Assembly (NCBI RefSeq): GCF_012275375.1
Contig: NZ_JAAZQJ010000006.1
Location: forward strand, 1 to 64,000
Origin: Dyella sp. SG609
Lineage (GTDB): Bacteria; Pseudomonadota; Gammaproteobacteria; Xanthomonadales; Rhodanobacteraceae
Direction of reading: 5' to 3'
Length of the DNA: 64,000 bases
Shown here: one piece after another, positions 5,605-24,651 of the stretch
How positions within the stretch are numbered: position 1 is the stretch's first letter
Layout of the letters: every line of letters begins with the position of its first letter
The notes under the pieces: generated by a model
Seen by the model: only the letters and a program-made list of their open reading frames with translations
Databases searched by the model: none
Told to the model about the DNA's origin: nothing
Made by a program: the position numbers and the translations under genes

Positions 5605-5910
5605 TTCCCTAAGCATGCGCTTTCCTCCGTTACGCTACCGTAGCATGTCGTAAAGCTATCGCGCTTGCAGCTGCGATGGGCATCCGAGGCGATCACTACA
5701 CAATACATGCCTCCGTCGTCCTCCGCGTTACCGCCACCTAACAACTATAGGCGCATGCTGCGTTGGGGCATGAAGACATTCCAGTCTTGGCAAGTGCCTC
5801 AGTCACGCGGCTTTGTTCCTGACGCTACCCGAGCACTTCCCCGATTCGTTTCGGAGTTACGGCATGGGCTGCTCAAGGTTCGCCCTTTGCACTGACCGGG
5901 AGACGACGTC
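5605..5910 (+). promoter_or_regulatory. Conserved ~300-nt leader, copy 1
   Basis: Non-coding stretch that aligns along its whole length with 24303-24610 on the opposite strand. Shared blocks in order include CCACCTAACAAC (5734-5745), GGCGCATGCTGCGTTGG (5750-5766), GCCTCAGTCACGCGG (5796-5810) and CGGAGTT (5852-5858). Two stems are kept with a G-U replacement: GTTACG/CGTAGC at 5629-5644 and CGGC/GCTG at 5860-5871. It ends directly at the GGGAGA ribosome binding site of the gene at 5911. Small indels break any common reading frame, which argues against coding. A promoter plus structured 5' UTR, or a small RNA gene, is the best reading. Confidence 0.65.
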
Positions 5911-6135
5911 ATGTTGAAATCGAGACAAGAGCTACGAAGCATGCTGAGCCGCATTGAAGCGGGGATAGTGCAACTGCATTCCAGCAACCCCAGCGAACCG
6001 GATTTCTTCCGGTGGACGGATGGCGTATTTCACGGTGTGCGAACGCAGTGCGCGCACGAAGACGATGATTGGCTTTTCAATTTGATCGACCAGATATGCA
6101 CGCGCCAGAGCGTCCCGTACCCGGCGGTCTTGTAG
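5911..6135 (+). CDS. Orphan small protein, family D copy 1
   Basis: A 74-residue acidic helical protein with ATG 5911 and GGGAGA eight bases upstream. It is paralogous to the gene at 28101-28367: both begin with R-x-E-L...L..(I/L)E, have a D-F-(F/W) motif near residue 32, and share an Asp-x-x-Trp...(I)D/A-x-I helix. No signal peptide, membrane segment or catalytic motif is visible. It is the gene immediately downstream of leader copy 1, while leader copy 2 serves an unrelated fasciclin gene. Function unknown; a small stress-induced binding protein is only a guess. Confidence 0.65.
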   Translation: MLKSRQELRSMLSRIEAGIVQLHSSNPSEPDFFRWTDGVFHGVRTQCAHEDDDWLFNLIDQICTRQSVPYPAVL

Positions 6136-6264
6136 TGCTCATCTTTGACCAGGATAAAAGAAGGCCGAGGAACTATGTCGATGCGGTGCGAAGCGAAGCT
6201 TTCATGGCAGTCTCGTTCATAGGCCGTAGCGTCGGTCACAATCCAGACTTATGAGGGTGGCGTC

Positions 6265-6483
6265 GTGAGCAGTATCGTTCGTCGTGAGATGATCGGGGGC
6301 TGGGAATTATCTCTTACAGAGATCAAACATCCCGCAAATGCGAGAGTGACTGCATATCGATTCGGTGCGCGAATGTCACTTGGTGGTGGTCGCTTCACGA
6401 AAGAGATTGGCGAGCATGCACGCCGCTTTCTGTCTAAGGCGGCGGCATGGACCGCTGGCAGGGAATTCATTGGTGAGGAATAG
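6265..6483 (+). CDS. Small hypothetical protein
   Basis: A 72-residue ORF with GTG start at 6265 and GAGGGTGG ten bases upstream. It contains GGWELSLTEIKHP and a glycine-rich turn (GARMSLGGGRF) followed by a helix. No paralogue was found in the window and no family recognised. It lies 130 bp after the family D gene on the same strand and could share its transcript. Moderate support only: plausible composition and ribosome binding site. Confidence 0.45.
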   Translation: MSSIVRREMIGGWELSLTEIKHPANARVTAYRFGARMSLGGGRFTKEIGEHARRFLSKAAAWTAGREFIGEE

Positions 6484-6576
6484 AGGCCGGTCGGATCATG
6501 TCGATGACTTCTTTATCGCGTCACCGGAAAGCGGTCACGTGACAAATGAGCCAGCGAGGCGGTAATCCAGTTCCAT

Positions 6577-7068
6577 ATGCCGAGCGTGGCCATCATTTCC
6601 GATTGCGGCCGATACCGCTACTGCCTCACTCAGAAGTTGGCGGCGAGCGGGCCGGTCTTCGCGTTCTTTGGGGTCTATCCTTCTGTCGCCGATGCGGAAG
6701 CTGGCGATGCCGGCATGCGTAAGAAAATTGGATTTACGAGGCGCTGGGGCGGATCGCAGTGCGTTGCCGGGAGCATCTTTGCGTTTCGTACTGCTAGTGT
6801 GTCAGTTCTTGGCAAGTGTGCTGACCCATTTGGGCCGCGCAATGCGGTCGAGCTGGAAAACATCATCCAGTGCGCCGATGTGCTCGTTCCGTGCTGGGGG
6901 ACGCGATCGAAGTTGCCGGAGCGCCTCCGTCCACGCGTGGCATGGCTGTCTGGGTTGCTGCTGGCTAGCGGCAAGCCCGTGAAATGCCTTGGCATCACCA
7001 AAGGTGGTGATCCTTGCCACCCGCTCATGGTTGAATATGACACGCCGCTTGTTGACTTTGTTGTTTGA
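6577..7068 (+). CDS. DUF1643 domain protein
   Basis: A 163-residue protein with the DUF1643 layout: an early R-Y-x-Y-x-L strand (DCGRYRYCLTQKL), the PSVADAEAGDAGMRKKIGFT segment that corresponds to the family's N-P-S-T-A-D...D-x-T-x-R motif, an F-A-F-R-T-A strand, and a late CWGT loop. The family has no established biochemical role; it turns up in phages, islands and near restriction genes. Here the N-P-S-T motif is changed to YPSV, so activity may differ. It is the last of three small + strand genes. The start at 6577 aligns with the family N-terminus but its ribosome binding site is weak. Confidence 0.7.
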   Translation: MPSVAIISDCGRYRYCLTQKLAASGPVFAFFGVYPSVADAEAGDAGMRKKIGFTRRWGGSQCVAGSIFAFRTASVSVLGKCADPFGPRNAVELENIIQCADVLVPCWGTRSKLPERLRPRVAWLSGLLLASGKPVKCLGITKGGDPCHPLMVEYDTPLVDFVV

Positions 7069-7146
7069 GAAAGTCAATCGGCAGACTGCGTTTCCTTCAA
7101 GGAGCGCTGTTATGACTGATGCGGAGTCGAAGGATGTGTGTCCCGA

Positions 7147-7368
7147 TCACCATCCATGATTTGGCTGACCCTCAGGGACGTTTCGCTGATCCGAGACACC
7201 ACACCTAATGGCGGCATCTACAGCATCAACCCGGGTAAGAAAGCGCTCTCCGGTGACACCAAAGCGCCCTTTGATCGCCAGGCCGTCGCGTAACAGCCGC
7301 CAGTGTCCACGCCATAGACCAAAGGCGTTGGGACCGTCTGCCCAGGCATCGATTGTGATCGTCGGCAC
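7147..7368 (-). CDS. Orphan small protein, family E copy 1
   Basis: A 73-residue protein beginning MPTITIDAWADGPNAFGLWR; GTG start at 7368 with AGGAAT eight bases upstream. The N-terminal T-I-D-A-W-A-D-G-P-x-x-F-G block recurs at 40074-40223 just after the glucan synthase gene, which argues that it is translated. The rest (GHWRLLRDGL, RFGVTGERFL) is unlike any family I know. No export signal. Convergent with the DUF1643 gene. Confidence 0.5.
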   Translation of the reverse strand: MPTITIDAWADGPNAFGLWRGHWRLLRDGLAIKGRFGVTGERFLTRVDAVDAAIRCGVSDQRNVPEGQPNHGW

Positions 7369-7547
7369 AGGGATTCCTAACAGCAGACCTATTCGACGTT
7401 AGTCCTATGGGTCAGAAGGCGCAAGTCCGGCTACCACATGCTGTAGGTTATCGAGCACGGGAGGCTCACGCGGAGGCTTATAACGTAGCGGGGCGTCGCT
7501 GCCAAGCGCGCATTTAAGTTCTCTCACGCCTCATCTTGTGGGAACGC

Positions 7548-7880
7548 ATGCGCGATTGGCGTTCGCTGCTGGAGCAGGACATGAACAAAATGCGCCACCC
7601 GGTTGGCATTCCTTGGTTCATAAAGGAGGATTACGAGGCATTTCGCCGGCTCGTTCCCCAGCGCAGTTGGCACACCACGTTCGGTCAGTGGGAGGCCGCC
7701 GCTACGAAGGTTCTGGATCAACAACGACGTGCTGGCGTCCTCGCATTTAAGGTGGAGGTGCAATCCGAATCTTTCGCGCTTTGGTGTCTTGACACCGGAC
7801 ACAGTGTCGACAGAGAGGCTCTTTCTGAGTACGCCAGCAAATTCGCGCGTAGGTTGCTTGCTTCGAATGACAGTGGCTGA
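7548..7880 (+). CDS. Hypothetical protein
   Basis: A 110-residue soluble protein from ATG 7548 (a TTG at 7536 is an alternative start). It has a Trp-rich N-terminal helix (MRDWRSLLEQDMNKMRHPVG), IPWFIKEDYEAFRRL and QRSWHTTFGQWEAAA. The C-terminal helix SEYASKFARRLL ends the chain. The composition and codon pattern look genuine and the length suits a compact alpha/beta domain, but no family was recognised. It is followed by the IS3 scar at 8036. Confidence 0.55.
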   Translation: MRDWRSLLEQDMNKMRHPVGIPWFIKEDYEAFRRLVPQRSWHTTFGQWEAAATKVLDQQRRAGVLAFKVEVQSESFALWCLDTGHSVDREALSEYASKFARRLLASNDSG

Positions 7881-8035
7881 AGGTCATTTCGACCCTCCTG
7901 CCCAGTCCAAATAGCCATGGACTTGGAATGGGGCATGAGTAGAGCTGTCACCAGGACGGTGGGAAGCAAATAACTAGGTATGTCTACTAGCTTGGCAGGC
8001 GTGGGCGCATGCTTGCCTTCATGTGGACGTGCATC

Positions 8036-8370
8036 CGTTGGCTGGTCAATGAAACCCAGTCTGGCACGTGAGCTGGCGATGGATGCGCTGTTGATGGTGA
8101 TCTGGAGGCGACATCCCCCATCAGGCGTAGTGATCCACTCTGACCAAGGCGTGCAATACGGTGGTGACGATTGGCGTCGATTCTGTCGCGAGCATGGTCT
8201 GGAGGTCCGCATGAGCCGGCGTGGCAATTGCTGGGATAACTCCGTGGCAGAGTCGTCCTTCAGCAGCTCGAAGAAGGAGAGGGTACGAGGTCGCGTCTAC
8301 GGCAGTCGCGAGGAAGCACGTAGCGACCTGTTCGATTACATCGAGGTTTTCTACAACTATCGCGAGAAAG
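8036..8370 (+). mobile_element. IS3-family transposase (OrfB) remnant 1
   Basis: The translation matches the DDE integrase core of IS3 OrfB: VGWSMKPSLARELAMDAL, VVIHSDQGVQYGGDDWRRF with the second catalytic Asp, MSRRGNCWDNSVAES, and the Glu of the triad in FSSSKKERV...EEARSDLFDYIE. The first third of OrfB, OrfA and the C-terminus (after FYNYREK) are missing, so it is dead. Downstream it joins an unrelated gene fragment (8422-8649). The upstream junction lies near 8036. Confidence 0.85.
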
Positions 8371-8421
8371 CCGCGGACACCAGCTTCTCGCGCAGTGAAG
8401 TGACCGGCTACTACTCCTATA

Positions 8422-8649
8422 AGTTCGCTAGCCATCCAGAACTACGGTGCCGACGCGCTCACGAAGGAGCATGTCCTCGCCGTGCTGGGGGAGGGGACCA
8501 CACAGGTTCCCGTACCCGATGGCGAGCCCGGCGAAACGATGTCGATGATGCGCTGGGACGCCAACTTCCTCGCTAATATCAGCATTCGGCAGTTGATCGC
8601 CGCGGTGGCGTGTGCTGGTGAGGTGACGACGCTAGCAGACCTGCTGTAA
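8422..8649 (+). pseudogene. 3' fragment of an unknown gene beside the IS3 scar
   Basis: A frame of about 75 codons ending at TAA 8647-8649 reads SSLAIQNYGADALTKEHVLA, later MSMMRWDANFLANISIRQLI and a final TLADLL. It looks like real protein but has no start: its 5' end runs into the IS3 remnant. I do not recognise the family. Probably the surviving C-terminus of a gene cut by the insertion. Confidence 0.45.
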
Positions 8650-8664
8650 CGCTTCGGGAGTCTT

Positions 8665-9099
8665 CTAGGCAACGACGTCGCTCGCTTGCTCGTCGGGGCG
8701 GTGACGTCGGTTTCCGACCACGGCGACTAGCTCTTCCAGGCCAAATGGCTTTCTCAAGATCGACAAGTCGGCTGGTAGCCTTCCAGCCGCCTCATCAATG
8801 CGTCCAGAGGCGACGACGATCATCATGTTTGGATCGATCTCCCGTGCTAGGAAGGCCAACTGCGCTCCGTCGAAAGAGCCGGGCATGTTGACGTCAGTAA
8901 GCAACAAGTCAAAGCGACCGCCAGCGGCAAGCAGAGCATGGGCGACATCGGCGTTGATCGCGCTCATGACCTCAAAGCCAAGCTCTTCCAGCATCGCGCA
9001 AAGTATGGCTCGAACGTCGTCTTGGTCTTCCACCACCAGCACCCGCGGCCTAGGAGGTTGCTGGTCACCGATATCGGCATTGGGTGATTCTGCGCTCAT
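8665..9099 (-). CDS. Stand-alone response regulator receiver protein
   Basis: A 144-residue CheY-like protein. The receiver domain spans about residues 18-132: acidic pocket VVEDQDD, phospho-acceptor Asp in LLLTDVNMPG, Thr/Ser position in VVASGR and the conserved Lys in ILRKPFG. There is no DNA-binding or enzymatic output domain, so it acts through protein contact, as in hybrid kinase relays; the sequence most resembles receiver domains cut from hybrid sensors. ATG 9099 has GTAGGT eight bases upstream. No cognate kinase is adjacent; the MASE1 protein at 18409 lacks an obvious phosphotransfer His. It is convergent with the IS3/fragment cluster. Confidence 0.88.
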   Translation of the reverse strand: MSAESPNADIGDQQPPRPRVLVVEDQDDVRAILCAMLEELGFEVMSAINADVAHALLAAGGRFDLLLTDVNMPGSFDGAQLAFLAREIDPNMMIVVASGRIDEAAGRLPADLSILRKPFGLEELVAVVGNRRHRPDEQASDVVA

Positions 9100-9339
9100 T
9101 ATACCTACTCTGTGACGGCGCCTTCCATGGTCGCCTCGGAGGGCAGTGTCACTGTACGCCGTTGGCTGGTTTTTGGATGTAAGTCATCCAGCCGGACCAA
9201 TAGTCGTTTATAGCCGGTCTAGTAAGTGCGCAGGTCTTAATGCCTCAGGGCGGACGGGTGCCATCCCGAAGGTACAGTTCCGCGCTTGGAGGAGAAGCCT
9301 GCTGGATCACTCCTCTTCGCAGCCGCCCGGGTTCTTGTG

Positions 9340-9627
9340 ACTCTGACGACCAGGGGTAGCTATCCGGGCATCAATCCGAAGGCGGTTCGCTTCATGGCGG
9401 AGCTTGGCTACGACCTATGCACGCACGCCTCCAAATCGCTAGATCAGGTCGGCGGCGAGTTCGACGCCGTGGTAACCATGGATTGCGGCGACAACTGTCC
9501 GTGGGTTCCTGCCAAGCGACGTGAGGATTGGAACCTGCCCGATCCTAAGCATATGGACGATGCCGGCTATCGCGCTGTGCGAGACGATATTGGAACTCGC
9601 GTGAGGCGCCTGCTAGAGAACGTATGA
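9340..9627 (+). pseudogene. Arsenate reductase (ArsC, LMW phosphatase type) fragment
   Basis: From about 9361 the frame reads YPGINPKAVRFMAELGYDL, then THASKSLDQ, VVTMDCGDNCPWVPAKRRED and DPKHMDD, which is the C-terminal three quarters of thioredoxin-coupled ArsC. The N-terminal P-loop with the nucleophilic Cys (C-x5-R) is missing: upstream sequence in all frames lacks it. The usual MGCGD is MDCGD here. Without the nucleophile it cannot reduce arsenate, so it is a headless remnant, perhaps of an ars operon lost from the island. Confidence 0.8.
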
Positions 9628-9695
9628 CGGCACTGCCGGACCTTATCGACTTGACCTGCGCCAAGTTCCGAGTCATTGGATTTGGGGAAGCCGCG

Positions 9696-10331
9696 TCAGA
9701 GAGAGATTGCGCCAAAAGCAGCATGTATTGCCGCAGCAATTTCGTCTTCGCTGCGCCCTCCATTGATGGCAATGCCTCCTCCAAAGACAAAGTGAGGAAC
9801 CGAACGGACACCGGCATCGGCCGACTTGGCCGCTTCCTGCTCGACGCGGCGGTGCTGTTCGGGATCAAGTGCAATGGCACGCGCCTGATCGCGGTCGAAG
9901 CCGTAGTCGGCTGCGATGTCGGCCAGCACATTCGCATCGGAGATATTCTTCGCTGCGATGAAGTAAGCATCGGTGATTGCAACCGCAAGCCTATGCTGCG
10001 TGTTACGCCCAGTGGCTGCCAGAATCAAGGCATGAGCTGCCTGGGTCGGATAGGCCCAGAGCTGACGACTAAGATCCAAGTCGAAGCCCGAAGCGCGAGC
10101 CTCTCCCTCGGGGCGAGCAAAGGCGGCCTTCGGATCGGTTATGCCGTAGCGCGAACGCAGCAAGTCGGGAATATAAAGGCCACCTGCCGGCGCATCAGGC
10201 AGCAGCAGGACGGGGTGCTGCCTGATATCAACAACCAAGTCGGGAAAACGCTCCGCCAGCACTTTGTCGAGACGGTGATGTCCGACGATGCACCACGGAC
10301 ATGAGATTTCAGTATAGAGATCTATTTGCAT
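9696..10331 (-). CDS. DsbA family oxidoreductase (FrnE-like)
   Basis: A 211-residue thioredoxin-fold protein with the helical insert of the DsbA/FrnE/2-hydroxychromene-2-carboxylate isomerase group. The active-site CPWC lies near residues 11-14 (MQIDLYTEISCPWC), and the cis-Pro loop is SVPHFVFG near 180. There is no signal peptide, so it is a cytoplasmic FrnE-type protein rather than periplasmic DsbA; such proteins are linked to oxidative-stress resistance. The start at 10331 (MQIDLY) matches the family; longer versions lie in fragment sequence. It sits after an azoreductase and an NAD(P)H-binding fragment on the same strand, a redox-stress set next to an HxlR regulator. Confidence 0.88.
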   Translation of the reverse strand: MQIDLYTEISCPWCIVGHHRLDKVLAERFPDLVVDIRQHPVLLLPDAPAGGLYIPDLLRSRYGITDPKAAFARPEGEARASGFDLDLSRQLWAYPTQAAHALILAATGRNTQHRLAVAITDAYFIAAKNISDANVLADIAADYGFDRDQARAIALDPEQHRRVEQEAAKSADAGVRSVPHFVFGGGIAINGGRSEDEIAAAIHAAFGAISL

Positions 10332-10344
10332 AACCATCTCGTGA

Positions 10345-10520
10345 TCTGATCTTCGCGCTACCGACAACGATTTCGACCCTTCTTGCGAACGGCGCGAGTT
10401 TCTTGGCGTCGCGCGTATAGACCGACAGGTTGTAGCCCTGCTTCAAGGCTTCCTCGATGATGTGCCTCCCGGTCGGCCCGGTCGCGCTGCACAGTGCGAT
10501 GGTTTTTCCCCGGCCATGAG
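10345..10520 (-). pseudogene. NAD(P)H-binding (NmrA-like/atypical SDR) gene fragment
   Basis: Between the azoreductase stop and the DsbA-like gene, one reverse frame reads KTIALCSATGPTGRHIIEEA, then LKQGYNLSVYTRDAKKLAPF and RVEIVVG, the first about 55 residues of the NAD(P)H-binding PF13460-type proteins, with the ATGPTG dinucleotide-binding loop. The reading continues into the DsbA-like gene in the wrong frame, and no start codon is in frame. It is a truncated remnant left by a deletion that fused it to the next gene. Confidence 0.7.
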
Positions 10521-10521
10521 G

Positions 10522-11139
10522 TCAGGCAGCCTTCGTCATCAAAGCTTTGATGGCTGTTTCCGTGTTGGCGATGGCGGCCTTCGCCACATCGGGGGCCAGA
10601 ACTGTGCCTTCGACACGCACCACTTCAACGTCGGTTAGGCCGATGAAACCGAGGAGGTGCAGCAAATAGCTGGTCTGAAAGTCGAACGGTGCCCAAGCAC
10701 CTTCCGAGAACACGCCGCCGGCAGCGGTAACGAGATAGACCTTCTTGCCGGTCAGAAGCCCCTTCGGCCCAGTATCGCCGTAGCCGAAAGTGACACCCGG
10801 CCAGGTGACGTGATCGAACCAAGCCTTTAGCTGCGAGGGCAGGCCGAAGTTGATCATGCCCGAACCGAGCACAATCACATCGGCGGCCTTCAACTCATCG
10901 ACCAACGCTTGCGCGACCTTCACTGCCTCTGCCTGTTCCGGCGTGCGCTCTCCGGGCGAGGTGGTCCTGCCTTGGATATAGGCCGGTGCGATATGGGGCG
11001 GAGGATTCGCGGCAAGGTCGCGCACGGTCAGCGGGCCGCCCGAGCGGGCCTGGATGCCCTCTGCGATTTCGGTGGCGAAGCGAGTGGACAGGCTGTCAGC
11101 CCCGCGCGGGCTGGAGGTGACAAGCAGGGTATGGCTCAT
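10522..11139 (-). CDS. azoR: FMN-dependent NADH-azoreductase
   Basis: A 205-residue flavodoxin-like fold protein of the AzoR/NQO family. The FMN phosphate loop is [10 protein letters not shown] at residues 9-18; [20 protein letters not shown] near 92-111 is the flavin/active-site segment, and TAAGGVF follows near 138. AzoR uses NADH to reduce azo dyes and quinones by two electrons in the cytoplasm. It is divergent from the HxlR regulator at 11247, with a palindrome at 11167-11191 between them, the usual setting for HxlR control of quinone/aldehyde detoxification. The start at 11139 is supported by family alignment. Confidence 0.9.
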
Positions 11140-11166
11140 GATGGCTCCTAAGTATAAAATAAGAAC

Positions 11167-11191
11167 TAAGTCAGCTAATTGTCCTGACTTA
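11167..11191. promoter_or_regulatory. Palindrome in the azoR-hxlR divergent promoter
   Basis: TAAGTCAG-N9-CTGACTTA, perfect 8-bp arms and dyad symmetry, centred between the two divergent starts (11139 and 11247). Likely operator for the HxlR-type regulator; arm spacing is right for a winged-helix dimer. Binding is inferred. Confidence 0.65.
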
Positions 11192-11246
11192 CTAATTCAT
11201 ACCTAGGATGGTGCCTTCTGCCCTGTCCTCACAAGAAGGCACACGC

Positions 11247-11681
11247 ATGTCACCTGGTCACATCGAGCTGCCCACCGATATGCCTGCACCGAATGCCGGC
11301 GGCTGTGTGGCAACCCGCCAAATATTGGATCGCATCGGCGACAAGTGGAGCCTCTACATCGTCGTCATGCTGGCTAATGGCCCACGGCGCTTCAACGAAT
11401 TGAAGCGCGGCATCGACGGCATTTCCCAGCGGATGCTGACGCTGACGTTGCGCGGGTTGGAGCGCGATGGACTGGTGACGCGAACGATGTTCCCAACCAT
11501 TCCTCCGCGCGTTGATTACGAACTCACTGACATGGGAAGAACGCTGCTGGAGCCGGTCATGGCTTTGGTTAACTGGGCAAACAAGAACCAACTCGCCATT
11601 GCCGAAGCGCATAAACGTTTTGACGAGGAACCGGAGCCGGATCAGGTCTTGATTCAAGGCGTCGTCTATCAACGCCGATAA
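11247..11681 (+). CDS. HxlR family transcriptional regulator
   Basis: A 144-residue winged-helix regulator of the HxlR/YodB/HypR type. The early Cys (GGCVATRQILDRIGDKWSLY) is the position used as a redox or electrophile sensor in this family. The DNA-binding core follows (RFNELKRGIDGISQRMLTLT, LRGLERDGLVTR) and the wing is YELTDMGRTLLEPV. The start ATG 11247 has AAGAAGG upstream; ATG 11208 would add a non-homologous leader. It is divergent from azoR, which it probably represses until quinones or aldehydes modify the Cys. That scenario is known for family members and inferred here. Confidence 0.92.
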   Translation: MSPGHIELPTDMPAPNAGGCVATRQILDRIGDKWSLYIVVMLANGPRRFNELKRGIDGISQRMLTLTLRGLERDGLVTRTMFPTIPPRVDYELTDMGRTLLEPVMALVNWANKNQLAIAEAHKRFDEEPEPDQVLIQGVVYQRR

Positions 11682-11822
11682 ACGGGTCTCGCCTTCTGCA
11701 GCGCGGAGGCCTACACCTGTTCGTAGGCATGGTCCCGCTGGACCCCAAATGACGACGGGCCACGTCGTTTTGTGGCGATCGACCTATCACCATTGACGCT
11801 CGGCTGGCGTATGCTCGCCGGC

Positions 11823-12005
11823 ATGTGGATCTGCATCCGCTGCCATACCGAATTCCCGGAGTTCACGGGAGGTGCCGAGGCCAACCTCGACAGCTTCGGC
11901 CTGCACTTTATGTGCCCGGTCTGTGGGCGACGCAATCGCCTGCGCAGTCTTGGCGAGGATAGGGAAGGGTTTCTGCGTCTGGAGCAGATTGACGAGCCCG
12001 AATAA
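11823..12005 (+). CDS. Small zinc-ribbon protein
   Basis: A 60-residue ORF with two knuckles, C-I-R-C near residue 4 and C-P-V-C near residue 32, spaced as in a rubredoxin-like zinc ribbon. After them come RRNRLRSLG and an acidic tail. ATG 11823 places the first knuckle at the N-terminus; ATG 11772 would add 17 non-conserved residues. The ribosome binding site is weak. It may be a whole small protein or a zinc-ribbon head of something larger; no family was identified. Confidence 0.5.
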   Translation: MWICIRCHTEFPEFTGGAEANLDSFGLHFMCPVCGRRNRLRSLGEDREGFLRLEQIDEPE

Positions 12006-12044
12006 GACAGCAGCCATTCTTGAGAACCATGAAGACCCGCACGC

Positions 12045-12215
12045 AGCTCCGTGCTTGCGACACAGCTCCTTGACCGGCATGCCCGCGTCAACTTCATGCA
12101 GGAACCCGATGATCTGCTCTTCGGTAAAACGCTTCTTCACGTCCAATCTCCTTCGGCTGAGGGATTGGACTCCAAATCGAAGCGCTACTCAAAACCGGTG
12201 GCGTTGGGTCATTAG
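12045..12215 (-). mobile_element. IS3-family left-end remnant (start of OrfA)
   Basis: The reverse strand reads KKRFTEEQIIGFLHEVDAGM, then PVKELCRKHG, the first 33 or so residues of IS3 OrfA, preceded by about 70 bp that should hold the IS end (the TGGGTCATTAGTC region near 12205). OrfA stops matching at about 12045 and nothing of OrfB follows. Same element type as remnant 3 (21911). Confidence 0.75.
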
Positions 12216-12282
12216 TCGCGAGAAATCCTGAACGGCATATCACTCTGTTTAGAGAAAGCACCTGGATGCAGGAGGACGCTGC

Positions 12283-13101: not shown

Positions 13102-13111
13102 GGGATGCTTC

Positions 13112-17693: not shown

Positions 17694-17709
17694 ATTTAGA
17701 CGTCTAAAT
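17694..17709. promoter_or_regulatory. Perfect 16-bp palindrome upstream of the Rhs gene
   Basis: ATTTAGACGTCTAAAT, fully symmetric with no spacer, about 180 bp before the Rhs start and inside the gap between it and the coiled-coil gene (17733). It is A/T-rich compared with its surroundings. Possible operator for a dimeric regulator; none of the regulators in the window has a matching site at its own promoter. Confidence 0.45.
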
Positions 17710-17732
17710 GAGACGACCAATGTGGAAGAAGG

Positions 17733-18210
17733 TTAGGGCGCGCATACCAGCTTTAAACGCATGGCTGAAAGGTCTGAGCGTTCTCTGGTCAGTCGTTCCT
17801 TCAATACATAGGCGCTTGACGACTCGTTATCTTTACTCGGTTGACCGTCCGTCCAGTTATAAATAACAAAGCCCGGTAGACGACGCTCATCCTGAGTTAC
17901 GGCTTCTTCAAGTCGTCGTATTTCTTGGATCACTGCCGTGTTCTGGACGCGTCGCATATCTTCCAGCTGCGCGCGGCACGTAACTAGATCGCTGGCGGCT
18001 TGGCTCGATGCTTTGGAGTCCCCGGCTTCTTTGCGAAGCTCATCATTCTTATTTTCGAGATCGTGGACACGGCCGCTCAGATAGGTAATTTCGTCCGTAT
18101 CGCCTTTATGCCTTTCCGTGAAATTAGGTACTTGATCCCAAGGCTGTTGCGCCGGCACCTACGATCGTCCACACCACGCCAAAGCCGACCTTCTCCCATA
18201 TGCCGCTCAT
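17733..18210 (-). pseudogene. Membrane-anchored coiled-coil protein split by a frameshift
   Basis: ATG 18210 has a good AGGGAA site and opens a 28-codon frame with a membrane helix (VGFGVVWTIVGAGATALG) that stops at TAA 18126-18124. A second frame, open from GTG 18158, continues with VPNFTERHKGDTDEITYLSG and a coiled coil (VHDLENKNDELRKE), then LEDMRRVQ and a C-terminal domain ending at 17733. Together they make the expected layout: short cytosolic start, one membrane helix, coiled coil and soluble end. The frames overlap by 11 codons, so a single-base indel near 18130-18158 is the simplest cause. Programmed frameshifting or coupled translation of two products is possible but has less support. 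No homologue recognised. Confidence 0.6.
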
Positions 18211-18408
18211 AGATTCCCTGTGTGAGTTCCATTTTCCTGTGCTGAAAGCATATCGAATAGGCTGACCGGCATCGATACCAAGTGTGTGGCGAAGCCGCCT
18301 ACGCGTCTTCCGGACCTTCGAGTAGGATTCACAGGCGTTTCACGCTGGGCTCGGTGTGATCCCGGCTTTCGAGCGGTACACCACAAGGATTGGGCAAGGG
18401 GAAGAACG

Positions 18409-20004
18409 ATGCGGGTTGGGCCAAGGGCGGACGCCCTGATTCGACACTTTGCACTCGGCGCGTTGTATTGCGCTGCGCTGTTTCTCATTAGCAAAGTGAC
18501 TTTTACCCACTGGATCATCGTTACCGGTTTTCATCTGAGTGCGCTGCTTCTGGCGCGGTATCGCTACTGGCCGGCGCTGGCACTCGGCGGTTTGGCGCGC
18601 ATGGTCTACGTGAGTATCGACTGCTATCCGCAATATGGCGCTGTATGGGCAACGATAAACTTGGTGCCGGCGATTGCGTATTACATGCCCGTCGTTTGGG
18701 CCTTCCGTCAGCGCGGGCTGCTTTTTCCAAAGCAGGGGACGTTTCAGGTCGTTGGCCTTGTCCTGTGCTCCTTCGTGGTGGCGACGATGGCCACGGGCAT
18801 CACGCTTGGCCAGTTGCTCTTTACTCCGCTGCCACCAAACTATGTCCTTGACTACAGCCAGGTGGTGCCGCGGCTGGTGCTGGGTAATCTGCTAGGCGTG
18901 CTGACGATTGCACCTACGGCGATGGTCCTCGCCCAGCTAGCGAGTGAGGCCCGCGGCCAATGGCATGCCTGGCTTCACGAGGTGGCGGATAGTCGGCTCC
19001 TGTTCGAGACCGTGTTCGTGGCTATTCCCGTGATGCTGCTCGTCGGGTGGGCGGGTCTCCAGGATGCACAAAGTCGTCCGGTCGCTCAGATGGCGATGTT
19101 CCTGCCGGTCGTGTTTTTGGCGCTCCGCCATGGTTGGAGGGGCGCGGCATTGGCCGGGACGCTCGCCAGCGTGGGGATCATGTTGTTGATGCCGACGCAG
19201 GATGATCCGAACACGCTTCAAGCGGAGGTTCTGGTGGCACTGGCTATCGCCACCATGCTGCTCGTCGGCGAGCATGTGGCGGGACTTCATCGGCGGGCCG
19301 AGCAGGAGCGCGTGGACTCACGCACGGCGATGGCGCTCGCGCAGCGGAACGTGGAGCTGGGTGAATCGCAGCTGCGCAGTGCGGCGGTCTCGCTTGAGCG
19401 TACGCGCGAAGCGTTTGATGTGATGTTGAGCCACCTTTTTTCCCGAGTGAGTTTCTACCTGCCGGCGGCGGAGGATCGTCGTTATCGTCGGCTTGCCGAG
19501 GCGGCGAAAGGCGAACTCCACCTCCTGAGCGACGCCATGCATCCGCTGATGTACCGCGATAGAGGACTGCCGGGGATGGTAGCGCAGGGTGTCTTAGCGA
19601 GACACCTTGAGGCGGCCGGGATCGCCTTCTGGTGTGATGTCCGGGGACCGGCCAGCGTGTTTCCCCCAGCGATGCACCTCGCTGCTTATCGCCTCATCTG
19701 CGATGCCGTCACGGACGCCTGCATGGAACAGAACGTCAGCGAAGTGTTGGTCAAGGTCCGCTGCGGGACGCATCGCCCACTACGCATGACGTTGCTGGTG
19801 CAAACGGTCGGTGACGTGGAGCGCCTGGCGCACATTGGTTGGGAGAAGCTGCTGCCGTCCCTGCGGCTGCTGTCCAGCGGCCTGGGCCGCCGTGCTATCG
19901 AGGACCGCGCAGCGACCTATCAAGGTTCAACGCGTGAGCGCCCATTGCCTCACGGTCGGCGGCTCATGATCTCGCTACAGCATCCCGGCCAACCCCACGC
20001 CTAG
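18409..20004 (+). CDS. MASE1-domain sensor with degenerate histidine-kinase end
   Basis: A 531-residue inner-membrane protein. ATG 18409 (AAGGGGAAG upstream) is preferred over 18286, which would add 41 unrelated residues. Residues about 10-290 form the eight or so membrane helices of the MASE1 sensory domain (LARYRYWPALALGG, PRLVLGNLLGVLTIAPTAMV). A coiled linker (LAQRNVELGESQLRSAAVSL) leads to a C-terminal domain that looks like a HisKA_3/HATPase of the NarX/LytS kind (LLSDAMHPLMYRDRGLPGMV, then AAYRLICDAVTDACMEQNVS). The N-box lacks the Asn of E-x-x-x-N, and no G1/G2 glycine boxes are visible apart from a late GLGRRAIEDRA. It may be a pseudokinase or a weak kinase. Ligand unknown. Confidence 0.75.
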   Translation: MRVGPRADALIRHFALGALYCAALFLISKVTFTHWIIVTGFHLSALLLARYRYWPALALGGLARMVYVSIDCYPQYGAVWATINLVPAIAYYMPVVWAFRQRGLLFPKQGTFQVVGLVLCSFVVATMATGITLGQLLFTPLPPNYVLDYSQVVPRLVLGNLLGVLTIAPTAMVLAQLASEARGQWHAWLHEVADSRLLFETVFVAIPVMLLVGWAGLQDAQSRPVAQMAMFLPVVFLALRHGWRGAALAGTLASVGIMLLMPTQDDPNTLQAEVLVALAIATMLLVGEHVAGLHRRAEQERVDSRTAMALAQRNVELGESQLRSAAVSLERTREAFDVMLSHLFSRVSFYLPAAEDRRYRRLAEAAKGELHLLSDAMHPLMYRDRGLPGMVAQGVLARHLEAAGIAFWCDVRGPASVFPPAMHLAAYRLICDAVTDACMEQNVSEVLVKVRCGTHRPLRMTLLVQTVGDVERLAHIGWEKLLPSLRLLSSGLGRRAIEDRAATYQGSTRERPLPHGRRLMISLQHPGQPHA

Positions 20005-20023
20005 GTGGAGTTAGCCCGTCCTT

Positions 20024-20476
20024 TTACTGCACCTTGATATTGCAGGTGACCGGGTCGCCACAGGCATCGGCGGCGCGCAACTGCATGGCGCCGTTGGACA
20101 GTGGCGTCGCCGTGATGGCCGTGGTGCCATCGTTGTAGACCGGCTTGGGTGCGGCAGCTGGTTGCGTTGCTGCCGGAAGGGCGGTCGGTTGGGATGGCGT
20201 GTCGACGAGATTCGCGTACCGGCCAATGGGAAGTGTAAGGAAGATGCCTCCAGCGCTACCGACGCTGCCGAGTACGTTTCCGTTGGCGTCATTGACCTGG
20301 ATGTACCGAACCCCGCCAAAGTCGAAGACGTAGACATGGAAGTTGGGGTTCGTGCTCACGTCGGGTGCATTGGGCCAAGCCTGGCCAAGCCCGTTGCTGG
20401 GTGACGCGGCCATGGCCGTGCCGGAAAGGCCGGCGACGAGGCCGACGCCGAGGATTGCACGTGAGAGCAGGTGCAT
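20024..20476 (-). CDS. Secreted or periplasmic hypothetical protein
   Basis: A 150-residue protein from ATG 20476 (AAAGGG upstream). Residues 1-24 are a clear Sec signal (LLSRAILGVGLVAGLSGTAMA, then ASPS). The mature part has an early Y-V-F-D-F-G-G-V strand, a Pro/Ala-rich linker (TQPAAAPKP) and a pair of Cys near the end (ADACGDPVTCNIKVQ) that could form a disulfide. No family recognised. It is convergent with the MASE1 gene with 19 bp between stops. The longer upstream ORF is not used because the signal peptide would be internal. Confidence 0.75.
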   Translation of the reverse strand: MHLLSRAILGVGLVAGLSGTAMAASPSNGLGQAWPNAPDVSTNPNFHVYVFDFGGVRYIQVNDANGNVLGSVGSAGGIFLTLPIGRYANLVDTPSQPTALPAATQPAAAPKPVYNDGTTAITATPLSNGAMQLRAADACGDPVTCNIKVQ

Positions 20477-20964
20477 ATAACGCGACCCTTTATTGGGTGG
20501 ATGAAATCGACCGATCAACGGATACCGAAATCTAGCACTGAGGTGTGAAAGTGGCATGAGCAGGCCTCGCCGGTCGCTCGGGGCGTTCTCCGGCGGTTGA
20601 AATGGGATCCGAGCAGGGGCTCGGCGTGCGGCGCCCAGACGGGCGCTTGTCGCGGCCACGGCCCTGGTCAGTGCATGAGCAAAGAGGGTTTGCCCTCAGC
20701 GCGCGCGGTCGTCCCCCCTCCTCGCCAGGGCACTTCTCTCCGCACTTTTGATGCAATAGATGCAAGGGCGTCGAGCCGCGCCCTGCTTGGTCCGAGGAAG
20801 GATTTCTGTGGAGTGGCAAGTGATGCGGATTGATGCGCGCCAGAAGTGAGTCCCTGGGGCTGGACCGAGCGCCGCCAAATCCGCTCAAATGCCAGGCAGA
20901 TCATCTGGCGCTCGCCGCAGGTCGTGCTCATCTGCGAGGGAGAGTAAGCCCAAAGCACCATGCC
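20477..20964. other. Intergenic, nothing supported
   Basis: Short overlapping ORFs occur on both strands here, but none combines a ribosome binding site, a paralogue or protein-like composition. No hairpin with a T-run and no repeat shared with the rest of the window was noticed. Confidence 0.4.
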
Positions 20965-21210
20965 TTAGTTCATAAGACTCTGCAGGAACGAAACCACTTC
21001 CTCTTCAGGAAAGAAGGTCAGCACGTCATCGAGGTGAAGTCGGTGCTTTCGCTGCAGATCGCGGAACTCGGTTTTGGCCAGTGCGAGCCGTTGCGCCGGC
21101 GTCAGCATGGCCAATTCCTCAGAGTTCAATGGCTCGGCCGGCTTTCTGTCTAAGGCGGCCAGCTCTTGTTGGAATTGCTGCCAGATATCGTCGGATACGT
21201 GCTTGCGCAT
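20965..21210 (-). CDS. Small helical hypothetical protein
   Basis: An 81-residue, charged, all-helical ORF (DDIWQQFQQELAALDRKP, LTPAQRLALAKTEFRDLQRK, ending DVLTFFPEEEVVSFLQSLMN). The amphipathic spacing and absence of low-complexity stretches favour a real cytosolic protein. ATG 21210 lacks a strong ribosome binding site. No paralogue in the window and no family assigned. Confidence 0.5.
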   Translation of the reverse strand: MRKHVSDDIWQQFQQELAALDRKPAEPLNSEELAMLTPAQRLALAKTEFRDLQRKHRLHLDDVLTFFPEEEVVSFLQSLMN

Positions 21211-21610
21211 GCTGTGTCGGGTACCGGTGACGGCGGGAAGGTCGGCGCCGTGCTGCCGGTTCCGGCGAAGGGGGGCGTGTCTGGGGATCTAGGGAGCACG
21301 CCAGTGAGCCACCTTAAAGGAAAGGCCATCGGCAAGTGTAACGGTTGCCCGATAAGCCCCCTGGCGACCTATTTAAGTGTCGGCGGGCATGGCATGACAC
21401 ACGACCTCTTCCGGAGCCATGGCAGAAGGTCAGAACTCGGCGTGGTGACCATTTTTCCTGGCTAGTCCAGATGTTCAGTAAAGTCCGCTTTCGACCCGAA
21501 GCAGACATGCCGGACTAAGTCGCTAGGTACGCCGTGTCTCGCGAAGTTGAGCTAGTCGATGGATAGACAGGGCGGCTGATGGCCGCTCCCTGACCAAGGA
21601 GCAGGGGCTT

Positions 21611-21910
21611 ATGGCAAGGACACTCTACTGCTGGAGATGCAAGCGGAACGCGCCAATGCTCGATGAGCAAGAATGGGCCGAGATTGCGTCCCTACTCTCT
21701 GCGATGGTGTCCAGGATCCAGGAGTTTCGGCGAGTAGAAGGCGCCTCGGTGGCCCAGGCGCTCGATCAGCGGTTCGGTGCTGACGCTCTGTCGCGCTATC
21801 AAGAATTAACTGGTGAAGAAGAGTCAGATCCCGAAGCGTTGCTGCATCACCGGGCCAGCTTGTTCGGCCCGCCATGCGAGGCTTGCGGGAAACCACTGCG
21901 CACGCCTAGA
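21611..21910 (+). pseudogene. Zinc-binding hypothetical protein, 3' end replaced by IS3
   Basis: ATG 21611 (AGGAG upstream) opens about 100 residues with two zinc knuckles: CWRC near residue 7 (ARTLYCWRCKRNAPMLDEQE) and CEAC near 95 (LFGPPCEACGKPLRTPRA), with a helical middle. Similar proteins usually continue with a second C-x-x-C pair after RTPRA. Here the frame crosses into the IS3 OrfB remnant, giving a chimeric 179-residue ORF. The gene was probably intact before the insertion; whether the fused product is made is unknown. Confidence 0.65.
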
Positions 21911-22291
21911 GCAGAGCTTGTGCGCTACATGGTGGGCAACGAACTTAGCGAGCGTCGAGCACTGGTCATCGTCGGCATGAGCGCAAGCGTCTATCACTAT
22001 AAAGGTCGTCCCGATCGCAATGTGGTGCTCCGCGATCGCATCGTCGGCCTGGCGCAGCGCCATGAGCGCTGCGTGCAACTGAGGTTGATCGAGCCAGGAA
22101 AACTCAATCAGAACGCCTACATCGAATCGTTCAACGGACGCACTGCGTGATGAGTGCCTCAACGAACACTGGCTTCCGAACTTGCGGCACGCACTGAGAT
22201 CGAAACCTGGCGTCGGGACTACAACGAAGAGCGGCCAAAGAAGGCCTTGGGCGGGCTCACGCCCGCTGACTATGCGAAGCAGCTAAAGTGA
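21911..22291 (+). mobile_element. IS3-family OrfB remnant 3 (internal deletion)
   Basis: It reads LVRYMVGNELSERRALVIVG and then RPDRNVVLRDRIVGLAQRHE from the OrfB N-terminus. It jumps directly to KLNQNAYIESFNGR near the C-terminal active site and, after a frameshift at about 22150, ends with ETWRRDYNEERPKKALGGLT...YAKQLK at TGA 22289-22291. The catalytic middle is missing. Same element type as the OrfA end at 12045-12215. The right IS end is likely between 22292 and about 22370. Confidence 0.85.
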
Positions 22292-22384
22292 CCATGGATC
22301 CTAATTCGTCCCGCTACTGAAGGCGGGAGTGTCGCCCCGACGACGAAACCGGGGGCGCACCAACCTATTCCACCGGTCTGGAAC

Positions 22385-22519
22385 TCAGCATTGGCCACCA
22401 AGTAAATAATACATTGCGGTTTCGCTCAGGGTGACCTCGTGGTCAACCATGCCGTCCACGAGAATGATGCTGGTGATGTCACCGCCGCGCGAAGCATTGC
22501 CGACCTTCGGCTCTGGCAC
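22385..22519 (-). CDS. Tiny ORF overlapping the family A copy 2 stop
   Basis: GTG 22519 shares a base with the TAG of the preceding family A gene (TAGTG) and opens 44 codons reading PEPKVGNASRGGDITSIILV, then DGMVDHEVTLSETAMYYLLG, ending at TGA 22387-22385. The composition is protein-like (alternating strand pattern) and the stop/start overlap suggests coupling. No second copy was found after family A copy 1, so support is limited. Confidence 0.4.
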   Translation of the reverse strand: MPEPKVGNASRGGDITSIILVDGMVDHEVTLSETAMYYLLGGQC

Positions 22520-22755
22520 TAGTGAAGGATCGGCGTCTCGTGGCGGCGATGGTAATCGTCGATGCTTGTCAGAATTCGTTGTCGAATGGCACTCTCGCAG
22601 TCGACTGTCCCAAGGCTACAGGGGAAATGGTTTGCGACAAACGTCACTTCCCCGTCATCGTCTTCAAGACTCGCCGACCAGCTCACGGTGTCCCTTTCAC
22701 GGCGGTAGATGGCGATGTAGATCAATCCTCGGTAAGAGCCTTGAATGCCTGTCAT
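22519..22755 (-). CDS. Orphan small protein, family A copy 2
   Basis: A 78-residue protein starting MTGIQGSYRGLIYIAIYRRE; ATG 22755 has GGAGGT seven bases upstream, the best ribosome binding site of the family and the anchor for choosing starts in the others. The core VSWSASLEDDDGEVTF, the Cys before SLG and the end DDYHRRHETP match copy 1 at 3411-3650. A broken third copy (first ten codons only) lies at 29269-29301. Cytosolic, no known fold; the strand-turn-strand core resembles family C (RWSATYRRDG). The upstream 120 bp are shared with copy 1. Confidence 0.75.
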   Translation of the reverse strand: MTGIQGSYRGLIYIAIYRRERDTVSWSASLEDDDGEVTFVANHFPCSLGTVDCESAIRQRILTSIDDYHRRHETPILH

Positions 22756-22772
22756 GATCGATACCTCCAGTG

Positions 22773-22888
22773 ACTGAAGCAAAGACGAGTCAGGCATCCC
22801 AGTTATTGATCATGCGCGTGACAGGTGGCCCGTAGGCGTCAAGCCCTTTCTTGGTGTAGTCCTATCGACATGTGTCGCGTGTTAAGTC
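22773..22888 (-). promoter_or_regulatory. Conserved upstream region of family A genes (copy 2)
   Basis: Counterpart of 3671-3785; identical 20-nt block CATGCGCGTGACAGGTGGCC on the + strand, plus ACGAGTCAGG and GTTAAGTCC. A shorter relative (GCGCATGACAGGT) occurs before the family B gene near 23196-23208, so this may be a common regulator site. Confidence 0.55.
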
Positions 22889-22898
22889 CGCAGGCCAC

Positions 22899-23129
22899 TC
22901 AGCTTTTGCAGGTGCCAGATACCCGCTCTAGAGCACTAAGCTGATCAATCGGGTGTTGATCGTTTGCGGCGGATGATTCGCCTTCGTTTATACCTGGCGA
23001 TGCCAGTATGTCCGATAGGCGAAGAAGTGCTTGCTTCGCTGCAAAGTTAATCGGCTGCCCGGCCGCCGCCGCCTCCAGGACCGGTGCGGCCACCTTTTCA
23101 CACCAATCAATCAGTGGATTGCCGTTCAT
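22899..23129 (-). CDS. Orphan small protein, family B copy 2
   Basis: A 76-residue acidic helical protein starting MNGNPLIDWCEKVAAPVLEA; ATG 23129 with GGAGG seven bases upstream. The block QALLRLSDILASPG is shared with the degraded copy at 4092-4304. No membrane segment or catalytic motif. It lies 100 bp upstream of family A copy 2 on the same strand; the same B-then-A order occurs at 3.4-4.3 kb. A promoter is visible at 23183-23214. Function unknown. Confidence 0.7.
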   Translation of the reverse strand: MNGNPLIDWCEKVAAPVLEAAAAGQPINFAAKQALLRLSDILASPGINEGESSAANDQHPIDQLSALERVSGTCKS

Positions 23130-23182
23130 AGAGGCCTCCATCCGCCGTGGGGACGAACCAGCTAACGATCTGGACACCTGGC

Positions 23183-23214
23183 ATTATAAAGATGGCGCAT
23201 GACAGGTCGGTCAA
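23183..23214 (-). promoter_or_regulatory. Sigma70-like promoter of the family B gene
   Basis: On the reverse strand TTGACC (23214-23209), 18 bp, then TTTATA overlapping TATAAT (23188-23183), about 55 bp before the gene at 23129. The GACAGGT-type motif shared with family A upstream regions falls inside the spacer, so a regulator bound there would block RNA polymerase. Confidence 0.55.
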
Positions 23215-23335
23215 GTGCAGATATCAGCCGGAAGAACTATGACGATTCATCTGGATGGCATCGAGTAGAAATGACTTAGCATGGCGACGTCTTTCCCTTA
23301 AAGCACCTTCGACTGAACTAAGCCTTCCTTTGTTC

Positions 23336-23542
23336 TCATTCGCGATTCGATTTCACGAAGCGCACGGAATCTAAAGGTGGCCGGCGCCATAGTGATTGAT
23401 ACATGCGAATCGCCCGACGCATCCATCCCGTGTGCTCTTGATGCATCAGAGCTAACTCTTCGATGGATGGCGCGTGGCGGTATGCGCCCCGCCGGAAAGG
23501 GCGGAAGAAGTAGATGAATCTCGCAAACGTGCCAAGAATCAT
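23336..23542 (-). CDS. Small hypothetical protein, second gene of a coupled pair
   Basis: A 68-residue basic protein (ILGTFARFIYFFRPFRRGAY, then SIEELALMHQEHTGWMRRAI). Its N-terminus is an aromatic, possibly membrane-associating segment. ATG 23542 overlaps the stop of the preceding gene (ATGA), which favours real, coupled translation. No family recognised. Confidence 0.5.
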   Translation of the reverse strand: MILGTFARFIYFFRPFRRGAYRHAPSIEELALMHQEHTGWMRRAIRMYQSLWRRPPLDSVRFVKSNRE

Positions 23543-23733
23543 CGACGCATGCCTCGTTTTATATGCTTCGCGGCGTCTACTGCTGCAGCGAGCTTTTGCC
23601 TTCGAGACATCACTTGCAAGGGCTTCAAAGGAGGTGTCTTGATAAGATGATCGAACAGATCACTTAGGTGTGTTATCCATTTGCCAAGCAGTGACACAGG
23701 ACGATGGGCGATGTGTGAAAGAAGGGTGATCAT
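23539..23733 (-). CDS. Small hypothetical protein, first gene of a coupled pair
   Basis: A 64-residue protein (ITLLSHIAHRPVSLLGKWIT, DLFDHLIKTPPLKPLQ, basic C-terminus RRQKLAAAVDAAKHIKRGMR). ATG 23733 has GAGGCGAC seven bases upstream. The amphipathic N-terminal helix could touch membrane. Its TGA overlaps the next start by ATGA. Two short basic proteins in an operon might act as a complex or as a toxic small protein with a partner; nothing in the sequence decides this. Confidence 0.5.
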   Translation of the reverse strand: MITLLSHIAHRPVSLLGKWITHLSDLFDHLIKTPPLKPLQVMSRRQKLAAAVDAAKHIKRGMRR

Positions 23734-23849
23734 AGCGGTCGCCTCAAATAATGAGCCTCTACAAGTCGAAACAGCAGTCGAAGTCAAACGGTAGGCCGGT
23801 GTGTGATGAAACCGGTGGCGGGGATGGCCCCACCACAAGTTCCTGGTAG

Positions 23850-24302
23850 TTACTTCTTGGCGGGCACGTTCACCGCATCGATGGCATGGATGATGCCGTT
23901 GCTCGAGGTGATGTCTCGCCCAGTGATGATTGCGCTGCCGATGCGGAGCTTGTCGCCGTCTTTCGTGACCGCTGCCGTCTGGCCCTGCATCATCTTGGGT
24001 GTGGTCAGCTTCTCGACGTCAACCGCCGGTACTCGACCGGGCATCACGTGGTACTTCAGTACGGAGATAAGCTCCGCCTTGTTCTCTGGCTTCAGCCAGT
24101 TCTCCAGGGTGCCTTCCGGCAGCTTCTTGAACGCCGCATCCGTCGGCGCAAAGAAGGTATAGGGGCCTGATTCCTTCAGGGTTTGGGTGAGGTCCGCTGC
24201 TTCGAGGGCCTTGCCTAGCGTATGGAAGGATCCATTCGCAGCCGCTGTCTCGATGATGTTCTTGCCAGGGGCGTGGGTAGTATTGGCGTCATGGTTGGAC
24301 AT
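23850..24302 (-). CDS. Fasciclin (FAS1) domain protein
   Basis: A 150-residue single FAS1 domain. The H1 box GPYTFFAPTDAAFKKLPEGT lies near residues 47-66, a Y-H conserved pair in LKYHVMPG near 90, and the H2-like end DITSSNGIIHAIDAVNVP closes the fold. Most bacterial FAS1 proteins are exported adhesion or matrix proteins, but this one has no signal peptide: the start ATG 24302 gives a hydrophilic SNHDANTTHAPGKN leader, so it may be cytosolic or leave by another route. ATG 24452 is not used because it would read through the conserved leader. Leader copy 2 (24303-24610) precedes it directly and is the same element found before orphan gene D1. Confidence 0.88.
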   Translation of the reverse strand: MSNHDANTTHAPGKNIIETAAANGSFHTLGKALEAADLTQTLKESGPYTFFAPTDAAFKKLPEGTLENWLKPENKAELISVLKYHVMPGRVPAVDVEKLTTPKMMQGQTAAVTKDGDKLRIGSAIITGRDITSSNGIIHAIDAVNVPAKK

Positions 24303-24610
24303 ATATGTGCCTTGAGTGGTGATCCGAGTGGCGGATCTGGGGCGGCCGAAGCCGCAACTCCGATAAGAGTCGGAGAAGTACTCAGGTGGCGTTAGGGATA
24401 GGACCGCGTGACTGAGGCGCCTGCCAAGAGAAGGCTTTATTCCTGGCGCCAACGCAGCATGCGCCTGCGGTTGTTAGGTGGGGGTAACGCGAGAAGACGA
24501 GGCGGACACAATATCTAACCCGGTCGTATTCGGATGCCTGTCGGGGGCTTCGGACGCAAGGGTTTGACGACACGTTACGGCGGCGTAACGAAAGAAGGCG
24601 CATGTTGGGG
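24303..24610 (-). promoter_or_regulatory. Conserved ~300-nt leader, copy 2
   Basis: Reverse-strand counterpart of 5605-5910. Matching blocks (given on the + strand) are GTTGTTAGGTGG 24470-24481, CCAACGCAGCATGCGCC 24449-24465 and CCGCGTGACTGAGGC 24404-24418, and two stems: CGTTACG/CGTAACG at 24573-24590 and GCGGC-TTCG-GCCGC at 24342-24355, the latter with a UUCG loop on the transcript. It ends at the start of the fasciclin gene. Identity falls in loops and between blocks while block order and spacing are kept, as in a structured leader or a complex promoter. Confidence 0.65.
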
Positions 24611-24651
24611 AGGCGCCGCGGCTCAAGTGATCATGCCTCCGGCGCCTCAGA

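Follow-up and report, generated by a model that had tools for sequence, protein, structure and literature searches.

Why should one non-coding leader stand before two unrelated genes? In the 64,000 nt stretch of Dyella sp. SG609 analyzed here (contig NZ_JAAZQJ010000006.1; hereafter the window), positions 5605-5910 (+) align end to end with 24610-24303 (-); the former precede the gene of an orphan protein, D1, and the latter the gene of a short fasciclin-domain protein. The original prediction, made from the letters of the window, read this block as one leader of about 300 nt that moves or is duplicated independently of the gene behind it. Comparison among related genomes showed a conserved predicted RNA structure, a near-constant position, use before unrelated small genes, and re-pairing of leaders with genes. 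We class the element as an uncatalogued cis-regulatory leader RNA, unusual for the many unrelated small genes that it precedes and for its re-pairing within a genus. The reading that we prefer, with a probability of about 0.55, is that of a family of structured 5' leader RNAs within Lysobacterales, approximately 190 nt long and cis-acting, whose fold would have two states and would thereby set translation; that the pairing has a regulatory effect is a proposal made from predicted structures.

Leader units in the window

The end-to-end alignment was borne out by pairwise comparison and by blastn against the genome that contains the window (G000; 5.13 Mb, 27 contigs), in which a 24283-24660 (-) query recovered 5606-5884 (E 7.1e-31, 72% identity) and a third copy at 66587-66857 of contig C17 (E 7.6e-81). 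The shared blocks quoted at the outset, GGCGCATGCTGCGTTGG and GCCTCAGTCACGCGG, were exact. A match of 24352-24710 to its reverse complement (E 8.4e-10) shows that two units, placed back to back, make up the 300-nt block. Its right part of about 190 nt (5724-5913 + and 24300-24491 -) is a leader that ends at the start codon of the named gene, and its left part is all or part of a second leader for a divergent gene, intact at 24571-24765 (+) and degenerate at 5579-5647 (-). The claim of a single leader thus held for the right 190 nt and failed for the left part, which faces the opposite way. The two copies first described are real and are joined by others, namely 24571-24765 (+) and 66702-66857 of C17, the latter being 98.7% identical to the fasciclin leader and ending at the contig end. 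An open reading frame (ORF) resembling an IS3 transposase, named by eye, lies about 150 bp before this copy.

The fasciclin unit, which runs from a 5' box to the start codon (model positions 1-194), scored 192.9 bits with the covariance model R1 described below (cmsearch, E 7.9e-58), a match that it gives by construction because it is a training sequence. The D1 unit (120.6 bits, E 9.4e-36) and the divergent unit before an orphan gene of the MY type (98.1 bits, E 7.3e-29) were also training sequences; gene-type names are our own labels, taken from sequence motifs. The degenerate partial leader, which consists of the 5' box and fragments and faces an MA-type gene, aligned with the MY-facing side and scored 17.9 bits (E 0.00023 in the window and 0.0185 in the genome). 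The genes behind the two aligned stretches are unrelated, as had been claimed: the fasciclin protein (150 aa, 23850-24302 -) matched Pfam PF02469 at E 7e-32, whereas the D1 protein (74 aa, 5911-6135 +), which has relatives, had no Pfam or NCBIfam match at E up to 1.

Structure and distribution of the leader

Alignment A4, the basis of R1, contained 34 of the 42 blastn rows; the rows left out were L002 for truncation, L012 because it diverges after P2, L035 for its shortness, the two L033 rows for an internal deletion, and three L018 rows that were identical. Its consensus fold comprised 33 pairs in five hairpins, P1 and P2 followed by P3-P5, which end just before the ribosome-binding site. In this alignment 94.9% of the paired cells could pair, two-sided compensatory changes occurred in 18 of the 33 pairs against a shuffled mean of 9.7, and none of 500 shuffles, a control that preserves the make-up of the columns and not their relatedness, equaled the real alignment on any of five measures. 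When the partners were slid by one to three columns, pairing fell to 34.6-42.2%. G-U cells outnumbered A-C cells (82 versus 25 in A4, and 41 versus 16 in 15 representatives), an excess favored by the fact that the structure was predicted on the sense strand, and the consensus folding energy was -31.0 for the sense strand versus -20.4 for the antisense strand. In the fasciclin leader (-), the 5' strand of helix P2, CUCAG, lies at 24412-24416 (98.2% of cells paired in 34 sequences, with two-sided change in one of five pairs), P3 at 24358-24375 (two-sided changes in five of seven pairs), P4 with its UUCG loop at 24342-24355 (97.1% of cells paired, with two-sided change in one of four pairs), and P5 at 24321-24337 (two-sided changes in six of seven pairs). 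A second-family alignment, which was fitted to the model and contained 11 rows, two of them doubtful, gave weaker support, with 90.6% of its cells paired versus 77.9% after shuffling. Judged from these alignments, conserved secondary structure with compensatory changes, by which a structured leader RNA is recognized, is present.

Of the two stems noted originally, that at 5860-5871 / 24342-24355 is hairpin P4; the one at 5629-5644 / 24573-24590 turned out to be a GTTAC..GTAAC box of the opposite leader and is more probably a DNA element. The absence of a common reading frame was confirmed, and a conserved ORF through the leader was ruled out as no frame was open in all 34 leaders. The P2 loop was richer in pyrimidines than the whole leader (fraction 0.68 versus 0.55 in 58 leaders), and its sequence varied by gene type and family.

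The covariance-model search in relatives, which had been proposed as a check, detected the element in 36 of the family's 194 genomes, a count that includes the window's own, and in 11 of 26 genera; 15 of these 36 genomes had supplied no training sequence. In an order-wide sample of 299 genomes, 24 had matches; the window's family accounted for 15 of these, a second family for eight, and a third for one. Ten matches outside the family were fetched, and eight had a fasciclin gene directly behind them, L210 had another small ORF, and the tenth, L209 (27.5 bits, third family), had no fitting small ORF after it and is probably false. R1 scored higher than a sequence-only model at eight of the nine plausible outside loci, including L207, which the sequence-only model missed, and lower at L208. 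An exact pattern of the 5' box and the letters following it, scanned over one genome per species in 84,980 species (records near the window genome may be left out), occurred in 21 stretches, all from Dyella, Luteibacter, Frateuria, or a Lysobacterales metagenome-assembled genome. A plasmid collection gave no match.

Several observations weigh against the reading that we prefer. Single-sequence folding energies were lower for the antisense strand (mean -69.7 versus -62.4 for the sense strand), single-sequence stability was moderate (z -2.69 and -1.16 for the leaders of fasciclin and D1, respectively), P2 of the D1 leader carries a mismatch, and G-U and A-C cells were about equally frequent (10 versus 9) in the second-family alignment, itself model-fitted. 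In addition, most of the strong matches were training sequences or their close relatives.

No Rfam family (release 15) reached its gathering score in the whole window. A permissive scan of 24200-24800 gave Bacillaceae-1 as its sole match (15.7 bits versus a gathering score of 35), and at E up to 1 all matches in five other loci fell outside the leaders. No report of such a leader appeared among the titles and abstract openings returned by the literature searches made here, to which this negative is confined. The element resembles the cis-regulatory leaders of Rfam in being a structured RNA upstream of coding sequences, with covarying stems and one leader for several genes, but no Rfam family matched it; it defines a structured RNA family that the Rfam searches of this analysis miss.

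Downstream genes and their re-pairing with leaders

We examined 92 matches, 82 from the family and ten from outside it, with L202 1109-1200 (12.8 bits) excluded. Among the 70 matches of at least 40 bits, 41 lay before fasciclin genes, 14 before MY, seven before MN, and one each before D1, GSY, MA, and MNV genes, and the remaining four, unassigned, were one contig end, two copies resembling broken fasciclin genes (by eye), and one other; these counts treat near-identical loci of related strains separately and include many training sequences. The 22 weaker matches, several of which cover just the box and a short stretch, comprised three fasciclin, two MY, five RSSAAF, three IHS, one HARS, one MNV, and one MA gene and six without an assigned gene. 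Several gene types thus follow the leader, and the region is not kept with only one gene. Counted from the unit start, the start codon followed after 181-198 nt for 40 of the 44 fasciclin units; the corresponding range was 188-195 nt for MY (13 of 16 units) and 188-194 nt for MN (all seven units). By sequence comparison, the predicted leader is fixed in position directly upstream of coding sequences. Divergent pairs within 700 bp, of a fasciclin unit with one of the MY or MN type, were seen at twelve loci. A pair of weak leader-like matches, also divergent and 25 bp apart, was seen before IHS and MNV orphans at L096 2337-2748.

Ten proteins were scanned, one fasciclin, two D1 proteins, and one for each of seven further types; fasciclin alone matched Pfam at E up to 1, and the single NCBIfam match was sub-threshold (HARS, E 0.12). 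One control element, or its box, links fasciclin with nine other small gene types, eight of which were scanned and had no Pfam match. Fasciclin matches numbered 82 in 66 of the 194 genomes, and 35 had a leader match just upstream. The leader preceded 35 of 45 fasciclin genes of the 354-369 nt class versus none of 33 of the 402-408 nt class, and seven of the 36 leader-bearing genomes had no fasciclin match.

A leader tree was built with FastTree from 64 leaders (no support values were read), and the pairing tests described below used 63; both sets were selected from hits of at least 40 bits together with L206 (38.9 bits), with identical leaders removed and L115, L204, and all weaker matches left out. 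The MY and the MN leaders each formed one clade. The D1 leader of the window nested with the fasciclin leader of its own genome (70.2% identity) and with the C17 copy (76.5%). D1 relatives were found in 11 of 193 other genomes (13 matches, of which the nine closer ones were read). In G020, G001, and G153 the D1 gene lies behind a GSY gene, with no model match directly upstream of D1; G001 has no fasciclin match, and its leader belongs to the GSY gene ahead of D1. In G003 D1 lies behind a leader-bearing fasciclin gene. In four others D1 is preceded by the box at a distance of 124-129 nt, and the model matches there are weak (14-22 bits), and in G004 D1 has a diverged long leader (40.5 bits).

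The leader tree, the G001 locus without fasciclin, and the D1 relatives without this leader directly upstream support, at the level of sequence comparison, a re-pairing of leaders and genes within a genus, a process for which the present family offers a case. From the contexts of its relatives, the D1 gene of the window would either have captured its fasciclin-type leader or have come under it when a gene between the two was lost. The predicted independence of leader and gene is borne out to the extent of this re-pairing; part of it may reflect operons whose first gene was lost or replaced, and not movement of the leader.

The 5' box, the proposed switch, and competing explanations

Most leader units begin with a box, TYAC-N7-TAACA-N7-GCGCA-N3-T, located at 24456-24487 (-) in the fasciclin leader and at 5728-5759 (+) in the D1 leader; the MN leaders deviate from it. 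In an information profile of 76 units the box begins abruptly, with little conserved upstream. Its exact pattern gave 67 matches in 34 of the 194 genomes versus one for the backward control, and among 369 genomes sampled across the class it occurred only in the own genome (three places) and at one stray site, with three matches for the backward control. Individual reading also revealed boxes 82-144 nt before further orphan genes with shorter leaders. At L176, L177, L179, L180, and L183 the box opens a short leader (about 90 nt) whose gene belongs to an orphan family of 75-80 aa with the motif SPWxLSTW..RRQELLAAQDKKRQE. Because the box is common to several leader types and its spacing is fixed, the sequences suggest that it may act as a promoter or operator at the DNA level. 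No sigma-70 promoter was found in 24200-24900, and the box is not known to fit any promoter type.

In the predicted fold of the fasciclin leader of the window, CUGAG pairs with the ribosome-binding-site region and not with CUCAG of P2. The proposed switching strand, GCCACCUGAGU, lies at 24380-24390 (-), and its alternative partner, the ribosome-binding-site region ACUCAAGGC, at 24309-24317 (-). Duplexes of leaders with their own partners were compared with shuffled partners, and none of 5000 shuffles was as good with 63 or with 45 sequences; 40 of 5000 were with 25 sequences (P 0.008), and seven of 5000 with 19 distant representatives (P 0.0014). In a scan of 43 windows along the leader the proposed switching strand had the most negative z at both cuts (-2.45 and -3.06). 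When alternative states were forced, the masked state was favored by 5.2, 8.0, and 3.3 kcal/mol in the fasciclin, D1, and MY leaders of the window, and varying the temperature between 15 and 42 °C altered the energies very little. The support for a switch is tempered by several facts. The masking helix was picked after the fold had been seen, and P is near 0.06 when the 43 windows are allowed for; some scan windows deviate equally far in the opposite direction (z up to +3.27), and since these deviations are as strong, the shuffle spread understates the noise and the nominal P values are too small. The masked state was favored in just 33 of 58 leaders, with five more untestable, although in this energy comparison it was given each leader's own best duplex. 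For a masking helix between CUGAG and the ribosome-binding site, these models give suggestive support. A pairing of P1 (CCUUGG) with the ribosome-binding site, appealing by eye, was rejected, 1195 of 2000 shuffles being as good as the own partners.

In the reading that we prefer, each unit would run from a promoter- or operator-like box through P1, P2, and the tandem hairpins P3-P5 to the ribosome-binding site and then the start codon, and the leader would be transcribed with its gene. In one state CUGAG would pair with the upstream CUCAG (P2) and leave the binding site free; in the other it would pair with ACUCAAGG and mask the site. The common box would make the small-protein genes one regulon, which becomes accessible to direct experiment through R1 and the proposed switch in pairing. 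A wider reading can be entertained tentatively, namely that the family represents a new class of riboregulators in which a bistable masking leader with a dedicated promoter box controls an orphan small-protein regulon, is swapped as a regulatory cassette from gene to gene, and answers an undescribed protein, sRNA (small RNA), or metabolite.

Somewhat less probable still is a mainly DNA-based element, a promoter-operator region that the genes share and that was duplicated either along with a gene or from one gene to another; its hairpins would be generic stabilizers of the mRNA without a switch. The fixed 7/7 spacing of the box, which leaves about one helical turn between each of its three blocks and the next over leader types of very different length, fits this explanation, as do the short leaders that the box heads without the five-hairpin array; DNA sites alone would not be expected to show two-sided compensatory changes or a fold that recurs in a second family. 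Direct sensing of a metabolite or of temperature, by a riboswitch or an RNA thermometer, is improbable. It would account for the five-hairpin fold, the predicted masking, and the use of one leader for several genes, but the downstream genes have no known common pathway, the P2 loop differs between gene types and families, and Rfam gave no match. Translational riboswitches that mask the ribosome-binding site share with the present leader predicted mutually exclusive helices, one of which pairs with the binding site; the leader differs from them in having no recognized aptamer-like core or ligand. The thermometers ROSE, FourU, and cspA are likewise hairpin leaders directly upstream of the ribosome-binding site, whereas the masking helix proposed here would give way to a competing helix and not melt. 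Averaged over 58 leaders, the predicted unpaired probability of the ribosome-binding site was 0.31 and 0.33 at 15 °C and 42 °C, respectively; predicted masking is nearly independent of temperature, and the thermosensor-like leader suggested originally finds no backing in this prediction.

An independent trans-acting sRNA gene lying upstream of genes by chance, also suggested originally, is very unlikely, although the RNA is conserved and structured without a known downstream pathway and its pyrimidine-rich P2 loop is of a kind found in some sRNAs. The start codon lies at a near-constant distance, and each of the several diverged copies per genome is tied to a gene. The sRNA reading is also disfavored because no terminator-like site was found in the scanned 24200-24900 (a scan not including the D1 leader) and conservation extends through the ribosome-binding site up to the start codon. 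The least probable explanation is a mobile repeat resembling a miniature inverted-repeat transposable element that lands upstream of genes. The self-complementarity of 24352-24710 and the nearly identical C17 copy with its neighboring transposase-like ORF point that way; against it, leaders cluster by gene type (MY and MN), the element halts at the start codon and not at free ends, and many units are single, not inverted. The original suggestion of a structured cis-regulator is backed by covariation, start-codon distance, and recurrence in a second family. Integron attC sites were considered as the CCTAAC..GTTGG of the leader resembles their core sites at first sight, but the leader spacing is too short for attC, and the element lies 5' of genes in both orientations; attC was ruled out, as GTTGG is not conserved across the aligned units.

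Among the other features of the window, the orphan MY protein (92 aa, 24763-25041 +) had no Pfam or NCBIfam match at E up to 1 and recurs behind the leader in relatives. The orphan MA-type protein (MTNISGKTTNGF.., 73 aa from ATG, 5170-5391 -) was taken from the ORF list, and its type also occurs directly behind a 48.6-bit leader match in L107. By eye, MA-type orphans occur twice in the window, at 5170-5424 (-) and 27239-27535 (+), and in L024 an MY gene is followed by a codirectional MA gene. Paralogous GSY-type orphans (GSYRxLIYI..SWSASLEDD, also by eye) were seen at 3411-3707 (-) and 22519-22797 (-), and GSY relatives sit just upstream of D1 in other genomes. Near the orphan genes lie a transposase-like ORF at 7980-8576 (+) and, at 21611-22150 (+), an ORF resembling a rearranged remnant (by eye). 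A gene for a cold-shock-like protein, named by eye, is located at 4498-4782 (+), near the D1 locus.

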